A stretch of 64,000 bases of DNA. Source: Alphaproteobacteria bacterium (GTDB taxonomy: Bacteria; Pseudomonadota; Alphaproteobacteria; MPNO01; UBA2964). Below the pieces are notes generated by a model, which was given only the letters and a program-made list of their open reading frames with translations, did not search any database and was not told where the DNA came from. Of the stretch, positions 26,879 to 28,144 are shown piece by piece. The stretch covers positions 62,001 to 126,000 of the forward strand of contig WLWZ01000009.1 of the NCBI GenBank assembly GCA_012103315.1, in the 5' to 3' direction. The stretch's first letter is position 1. Each line of letters starts with the position of its first letter. The translations under genes were made by a program, and so were the position numbers.

Positions 26879-28144
26879 TTATGGATGAAAGTGACGGGCA
26901 ATCTTCATGACTGGGATGCCGGCGATACGGGCCTGTTTAACAAGGGCATTCAGGGCTGGTTGGTTTGGTGCGGCGGCGGCCTGTTTGAATAAAGCTGCAG
27001 CACGATCACGTTGTCCTTGGTCATTTTCTGCTGCTGCGAAGACCAGGTGTTTTTGATTTAGCTTGTAGCTGAGTCGCCGTGGTGGGCGGGCATCAAGTGA
27101 AAGAGTTTTCTCGGCGGCTAAGGTTGTTTCCGAAGCAACCGCCCGTGTTCGAAATGATGTTCCCGAAAGACTTTCGCGGGCTGCCAATACCCAAAGTTTT
27201 TGCTTGGTGTCTGAAACGTTTTTAATTCGGTACTGCAGTTTGCATAACCGATGGAGATTGGCACTCTTGTCCGTTTGTGCCCCACCGATGCGTTTCTCGG
27301 AGATTTGCGGAGCGACGATATCAAAAAGGACTTCAGCGCATTTACCGCCAGCGGGCGCATGTGTTTCCAGCGCGACTGCTGAAACTGGCTGGCCTTCCGT
27401 TGCTTCGTTTTGGTCCGCGGCAGTCACTGCATTCTTTGTCGTGGGACCGATATTCAATACGATTGCTACTATTCCCGCGATGCTCGCGCTAACCACCGAA
27501 GCACGCCGTAATTTTCTCCCAACTGTTTTTTTAGGTAATGAAATTGCCAGTTGAGGGCGTTTGCGGGGCCGTTTCAGTCGAAGGACCTTTAGAACTTCCA
27601 ACACATCTTCTGCGGCAACAAATTTGAACTTTGAAGGGGATGTGAGCGTAAGGCGGCTTATCTCTTCCTCCGCTTCTGCCCGATTTGCCGCAGGGATGGC
27701 GATGACGATTTCGGTGCCATCGGCAATCAGGTCATCGAATAGATCGCGAGATCTTTGAAGTTTCTGCCCGATATCGCTGACGCTCTGGACACTGAGGTCG
27801 CAATTGACCTCGCCAGATGCCCAGACGACGCGGTTATAGGTTTCATTATTGGTGGCAAGACGACGTTCTCGCGCTAGCGCATGACCAACAAAGGCCCCAA
27901 GTTGCCAACTCAATCCAGACCCGATGGGATCTGAAATATCCATCCGATAGGCGCTATGGCCATAGCAGGCTTCAATTACACCAGTGGGACGTCTTACGAA
28001 CGTGTCATAATCCGGGCTAATCGGTAGGGCCATGGCACGACCGCCGAGACAAATAACCGAACGCACATCTGGTGCTTCGGCGGTAAGACGCTGCAGGCGA
28101 GTGGGACCTTCAGTTGTCGCTACAAAGACGGCAGTTTTACTCAT
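26879..28144 (-). CDS. Lon (S16) protease-like domain plus TM segment plus unknown C-terminal domain
   Basis: 'SGLSWQLGAFVGHAL...NRVVWASGEVNCDLSVQSVSDIGQKLQRS...IADGTEIVIAIPAANRAEAEEEI...FKFVAAEDVLEVLKVL' resembles the Lon proteolytic domain; TM 'SVVSASIAGIVAIVLNIG'. Confidence 0.62.
   Translation of the reverse strand: MSKTAVFVATTEGPTRLQRLTAEAPDVRSVICLGGRAMALPISPDYDTFVRRPTGVIEACYGHSAYRMDISDPIGSGLSWQLGAFVGHALARERRLATNNETYNRVVWASGEVNCDLSVQSVSDIGQKLQRSRDLFDDLIADGTEIVIAIPAANRAEAEEEISRLTLTSPSKFKFVAAEDVLEVLKVLRLKRPRKRPQLAISLPKKTVGRKLRRASVVSASIAGIVAIVLNIGPTTKNAVTAADQNEATEGQPVSAVALETHAPAGGKCAEVLFDIVAPQISEKRIGGAQTDKSANLHRLCKLQYRIKNVSDTKQKLWVLAARESLSGTSFRTRAVASETTLAAEKTLSLDARPPRRLSYKLNQKHLVFAAAENDQGQRDRAAALFKQAAAAPNQPALNALVKQARIAGIPVMKIARHFHP

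Follow-up and report, generated by a model that had tools for sequence, protein, structure and literature searches.

A predicted membrane-anchored Lon-like protease and its dedicated partner in an alphaproteobacterial envelope gene cluster

The window analysed here is a 64,000-nucleotide stretch of contig WLWZ01000009.1 from an Alphaproteobacteria bacterium (GCA_012103315.1). At 26879-28144 its minus strand carries an open reading frame for a 421-residue Lon-like membrane protein with homologues both in and outside the class; the plus strand there is full of stops. The gene belongs to a run of closely spaced or overlapping minus-strand genes that starts at 34013 and ends at 22054, and the features of this run described below all lie on that strand. 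Its start overlaps by 4 nucleotides (ATGA) the stop of the preceding gene, which encodes a 182-residue partner protein (28141-28689) with a helical N domain and a beta C domain. Read from its N terminus, the 421-residue protein comprises a Lon-like proteolytic domain of the S16 fold (residues 1-190; 27575-28144), a transmembrane helix (residues 215-233; 27446-27502) and a beta-rich C-terminal domain that is probably periplasmic (26885-27385; strands at residues 254-420 in an AlphaFold2 model). The original prediction, made from the letters of the DNA, had proposed a Lon proteolytic domain with a Ser-Lys dyad followed by a transmembrane segment, serving as either a protease or a scaffold that uses the fold. 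The strand, the likely topology with a probable disulfide, and the partner gene with its invariant Ala-Ala linker go beyond it.

Fold, dyad positions and topology of the Lon-like protein

By structure prediction and profile comparison, residues 1-190 are a divergent Lon proteolytic domain. The AlphaFold2 model has a mean predicted local distance difference test score of 85, and most of the N domain exceeds 90. When the model was compared with the PDB using Foldseek, the top 11 matches were all Lon proteases (E 2.6e-6 to 9.1e-5, probability 1.00) and the first match to anything else came at E 4.9e-3, so that the Lon fold proposed for the first ~190 residues is recovered in the predicted structure. 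Profile comparison agrees: a profile of 27 Lon sequences aligned by hhalign to the family with a probability of 90.9 (24 family sequences) or 84.0 (34 sequences), while decoys (40 column-shuffled Lon profiles, a reversed profile and 13 other families) peaked at 1.9. The PADLOC family CARF_LON gave a weak independent match inside the same domain (residues 95-188, E=1e-4). The N domain is also more conserved than the protein as a whole, with 87, 84 and 51% identity to the nearest relatives versus 74, 65 and 39%.

Simpler searches were silent. Single-sequence searches of Pfam, NCBIfam and the PDB with the 421-residue protein gave nothing significant, a PDB profile search with the Lon-like domain gave nothing useful, and Pfam Lon_C (PF05362) did not match up to E 1, its search of the same genome returning three other genes only. 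The protein has no Pfam AAA match and no Walker A pattern, in line with the predicted lack of an AAA+ ATPase domain, and no Pfam match to PDZ, SAVED or CARF; neither SAVED nor CARF was found among the top fold matches.

Ser79 (27908-27910), the putative nucleophile, and Lys128 (27761-27763), the putative general base, are each invariant in 34 of 34 sequences. In the hhalign alignment they stand in register with S679 and K722 of Escherichia coli Lon: Ser79 aligns with the Ser of the Lon DGPSAG motif and Lys128 with the second of the two Lys in KEK, which by our own count we take to be E. coli Lys722. The placement of the dyad on the Lon catalytic pair is thereby borne out, and the residues quoted for it (Ser79 in GLSWQLG, Ser110-Gly111-Glu112, Lys128, Pro151 and Asn154) had been read correctly, as had the Ser-Lys spacing of 49. 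Trp80 and Gly111 are likewise present in all 34 sequences, position 110 being Thr or Ser, and among 24 full-length proteins invariance is limited to the columns T10, T11, V50, G77, S79, W80, L82, G111 and K128. In Lon and in this family alike, the Lys follows the equivalent of the Lon TGE at a distance of 18 residues. As far as sequence and prediction go, the fold and the dyad positions can be regarded as settled; catalysis by Ser79-Lys128 is what we infer from them.

Residues 215-233 are the sole hydrophobic segment (mean hydropathy 2.06), consistent with the single transmembrane helix that had been proposed, and its flanks carry a net charge of +6 on the N side and -1 on the C side. The C-terminal domain contains Cys269 and Cys301, and most homologues have a Cys pair about 32 residues apart in this domain. 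The positive-inside rule, taken together with the Cys pattern, would place the Lon-like domain in the cytoplasm and the C-terminal domain in the periplasm, with the helix as an inner-membrane anchor (N-in, C-out). The C-terminal domain is probably disulfide-bonded.

The partner protein and its Ala-Ala linker

The first homologues of the 421-residue protein came from three other genomes of the same genus, one of the same family and two of the same order. A profile search with the N domain, in which the gene was counted as present at E<1e-10 (a match in locus L066 and several at E 1e-3 were left out as spurious), then placed it in 21 of 395 genomes of the class, its own included; the sample consists of species representatives of uneven completeness. 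A profile search of the same genomes found the partner in all 21. The partner occurred without the Lon-like gene in one convincing case (E 3.5e-33), a 63%-complete genome whose genus also holds a positive, and in one further weak match that contains an in-frame stop. Searching the whole phylum with the partner only gave ten further loci in nine genomes, some outside the class, and a Lon-like gene with Ser and Lys kept adjoins the partner at each. A dedicated partner, near-always inherited with the Lon-like gene, is newly found here. No match to a plasmid carrying the locus was found, nor were viral relatives in IMG/VR, searched with the A1 patterns; no description of the cluster was found in the open-access literature, a scope in which an account in a subscription journal or a preprint could be missed.

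In its model the partner consists of helices at residues 7-82 and then strands from residue 93. The model had no PDB match below E 0.02, and a PDB profile search with the partner gave nothing useful. An anti-sigma-like reading of its N domain was considered and found no support. Only two columns are fully invariant among 32 partners, Ala92 and Ala93. Both belong to the linker motif AAASSG (residues 91-96; 28402-28419), in an interdomain stretch that is modelled with lower confidence. The pattern across the family is [AVIM]-A-A, with Ser, Ala or Gly at the next position in most cases (Tyr once) and usually Ser, Thr, Asp or Gly at the one after; a nearly invariant Arg101 stands eight residues after the Ala pair. 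Chance or composition is an unlikely source of the Ala motif, because it is fixed in 32 divergent partners while no other column is. A precedent for such a sequence as a substrate comes from birnavirus VP4, an ATPase-less Lon-like Ser-Lys protease: the conserved feature of its sites is Ala at P1, and the small-peptide cleavage sites of birnaviruses have ASG at P1'-P3' (PMC12191561). By analogy with these sites, Ala93-Ser94 is predicted to be the scissile bond of the partner, with cleavage after Ala93.

A candidate proteolytic switch and its rivals

CalpL is the nearest functional analogue: its SAVED domain binds cyclic tetra-adenylate (cA4), and its Lon domain then cuts the dedicated partner CalpT (PMC11417357; PMC9704534). 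In the system described here the sensor would be periplasmic. The protein would be an inner-membrane protease whose cytoplasmic Lon-fold N domain works through a Ser79-Lys128 dyad without an ATPase. A single transmembrane helix would link it to a second domain in the periplasm, probably disulfide-bonded, whose likely role is to sense the envelope or to bind the envelope machine specified by the neighbouring genes. On a trigger, the Lon-like domain would make one site-specific cut in the partner linker, [AVIM]-A-A|[SAG], and the cut would part the helical N domain of the partner from the beta C domain. The result would be to switch an envelope system with a lytic transglycosylase and an ExbB/TonB-like module at its cytoplasmic side (the protein encoded at 28686 and the partner). 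The model builds on the fold match, the invariant dyad positions, the transmembrane and Cys pattern, the co-occurrence across genomes and the invariant linker; catalysis, substrate, cut site, direction of the signal and output are its conditional parts. Taken as a whole, a transmembrane, site-specific Lon-like protease that cuts its partner and thereby switches an envelope system is probable by a small measure. The broader proposal, a widespread and undescribed proteobacterial device in which a periplasm-reading, ATPase-free Lon-like endopeptidase cuts a cytoplasmic partner at AAA|S and gates an ExbB/TonB-like and transglycosylase machine, is more tentative and falls somewhat short of an even chance.

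Several observations weigh against the cleavage model. Superposition on the E. coli Lon P domain gives a template-modelling score of 0.61 and a root-mean-square deviation of 5.6 Å, a moderate fold similarity. Directly after the catalytic-position Ser stands an invariant Trp where Lon has Ala (GxSWxL versus GPSAG), and the PROSITE S16 signature, [DEQN]-G-[PD]-S-A-[GS]-..., occurs in 0 of 34 family members versus 20 of 27 Lon controls; because of this replacement and the absent signature, the specificity of the pocket may differ. For the partner, the invariant Ala-Ala could instead be a structural or docking site, and no output domain was recognised. Finally, partner and protease lie on different contigs in two genomes (G015 and G186); in G015 the usual upstream genes precede the partner, which is located at the end of a contig.

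The strongest alternative, possible and yet on the unlikely side, retains an active Lon-like Ser-Lys protease and makes the partner an adaptor or inhibitor, with either the protease itself or a different product of the envelope cluster as the true substrate. It accounts equally well for the invariant dyad, the near-obligate co-occurrence would suit an adaptor, and Ala-rich juxtamembrane linkers also occur in some of the protease homologues (for example, RIAAAASLPL in locus L110). These juxtamembrane stretches vary across the family, however, whereas A92-A93 of the partner linker is found in 32 of 32 sequences. It is rather improbable that the protein is a pseudo-protease whose Lon fold serves as a scaffold or binds peptides and in which Ser79 and Lys128 are kept for structure or binding. 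The Ser-Trp pair and the missing S16 signature would fit that description, and purified YlbL without its transmembrane segment likewise showed no activity in vitro (PMC6051672), but the dyad positions are among a handful of invariant columns at 19-74% overall identity, and pseudo-enzymes usually lose such positions. The scaffold option in the original prediction is unlikely for this reason, since both catalytic positions are invariant. General membrane quality control by an ATPase-less Lon unrelated to the partner draws on the Lon-fold ancestry and is very improbable given the sparse distribution, the strict co-occurrence with one partner and the fixed gene order. A coincidental resemblance in a domain unrelated to Lon would explain why single-sequence searches find neither Lon_C nor a PDB entry, and is scarcely credible when the Lon assignment emerges both from the fold search and from the profile comparison, which also puts the catalytic residues in register, and the decoys fail.

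Comparison with known systems places the cleavage model in context. Like CARF-Lon proteins and CalpL of type III CRISPR systems, the protein has an ATPase-less Lon domain fused to another domain, which in those cases is the controlling one, and like CalpL it has a dedicated small adjacent partner, CalpT being cut into two fragments (PMC11417357; PMC9704534). The controlling domain there is SAVED or CARF, whereas here a transmembrane helix and a probable periplasmic domain are present, the annotated neighbours are envelope proteins and no sigma factor was seen. Bacillus YlbL, a Lon-PDZ protein, shares the membrane anchor, the lack of AAA+ and the Ser-Lys dyad (S234/K279, a spacing of 45 versus 49 here; PMC6051672). 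It differs in having a PDZ domain, an N-terminal transmembrane segment and a recognised Lon domain; here there is no PDZ domain, and the helix follows a protease domain placed in the cytoplasm. Birnavirus VP4 shares the Lon-like Ser-Lys arrangement and the lack of an ATPase, and its sites have Ala at P1 (PMC12191561), as proposed here for the partner, but it processes a viral polyprotein and is not part of a transmembrane protein with a periplasmic domain. LonA and LonB (MEROPS S16, PF05362) share the P-domain fold with Ser, Thr/Ser-Gly and Lys positions in register, and differ from this membrane-anchored family in their AAA+ domain, in GPSAG for GxSWxL and in lying within Pfam detection. By defining features, then, the protein falls outside Lon_C, CalpL/CARF-Lon and YlbL, but through its fold and dyad it belongs to the wider group of Lon-fold proteases.

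If the cleavage model is true, an envelope-sensing branch would be added to the few Lon-like proteases that act as site-specific switches rather than as degradation machines, with a candidate substrate and cut site already in hand. It would also offer a way into a multi-gene envelope system, as yet uncharacterised, that occurs in about 5% of the genomes sampled from the class as well as beyond the class. This system has a lytic transglycosylase and ExbB/TonB-like proteins and in relatives includes Ser/Thr kinase, FHA, caspase and trypsin-like proteins. The findings suggest that the cell envelope has a proteolytic switch that has not been described before.

The surrounding gene cluster

The gene that overlaps the partner gene on its upstream side encodes a conserved 547-residue protein (28686-30329), the upstream neighbour in most loci. 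It has no Pfam or PDB match, a PDB profile search also gave nothing useful, and an alignment of 25 homologues has six invariant columns (M1, W221, K304, Q341, G477 and F535). Upstream of it lie an SLT lytic transglycosylase (30331-30906), a gene kept in the cluster whose relatives match PF01464, and a small membrane or exported protein (30857-31315) that is conserved upstream of SLT by locus comparison. Further upstream, 31347-32216 encodes peptidoglycan-binding and CsgG domains.

Downstream of the Lon-like gene, a second module opens with a putative lipoprotein (26223-26801), placed by locus comparison and alignment. Two conserved exported proteins follow, one coiled-coil-like by appearance (25281-26180) and one small (24867-25271), and then a multi-transmembrane protein weakly assigned as MotA/TolQ/ExbB-like (24350-24889; PADLOC ZorA2, E=0.003, and alignment), a Pro-rich protein with a single transmembrane segment (23794-24378; locus comparison), a conserved TonB/TolA-like protein (22738-23775), so called by appearance only from its N-terminal transmembrane segment and Pro/Lys-rich sequence, and another putative lipoprotein (22054-22731; locus comparison). 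None of ten scanned proteins between 22054 and 30497 scored above the cut-off in Pfam or NCBIfam. The ExbB/MotA-like and TonB/TolA-like module (22054-24889 and 26223-26801), which has no Pfam families, is conserved proteobacteria-wide beside Lon-like genes and represents an uncharacterised and possibly energised envelope machine.

The gene order 30857-SLT-28686-28141-Lon-like recurs across many families, and the block 26223-25281-24867-24350-23794-22738 joins this core in about a dozen loci, in some of which it is inverted or lies apart. L064 and L065, the most divergent members, keep, within the stretch read, only the partner-protease pair of the core, which makes that pair the smallest conserved unit seen. 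In a locus outside the class (L114, 1857-6624), a Ser/Thr kinase with an FGE-sulfatase domain and an FHA protein lie directly upstream of the core genes, a pair reminiscent of type VI secretion regulators; elsewhere the core set is accompanied by caspase-Sel1, Trypsin_2, OmpA and DUF4384 proteins. In the window, a divergent pair with the appearance of a response regulator and a sensor kinase (34655-36746) lies beside the cluster and could regulate it.

Two loci are of separate note. In L011 (10001-11251) an in-frame TAA interrupts the Lon-like gene after residue 75, and adjacent genes are broken too, probably through assembly errors. In L015 (G015:C227, 245-2725) the Lon-like open reading frame adjoins what appears by eye to be a diversity-generating retroelement, made up of an Avd-like open reading frame, a reverse transcriptase and a template-like repeat, RGGSWNNNPRNVRAANRNRN...GFRVA.
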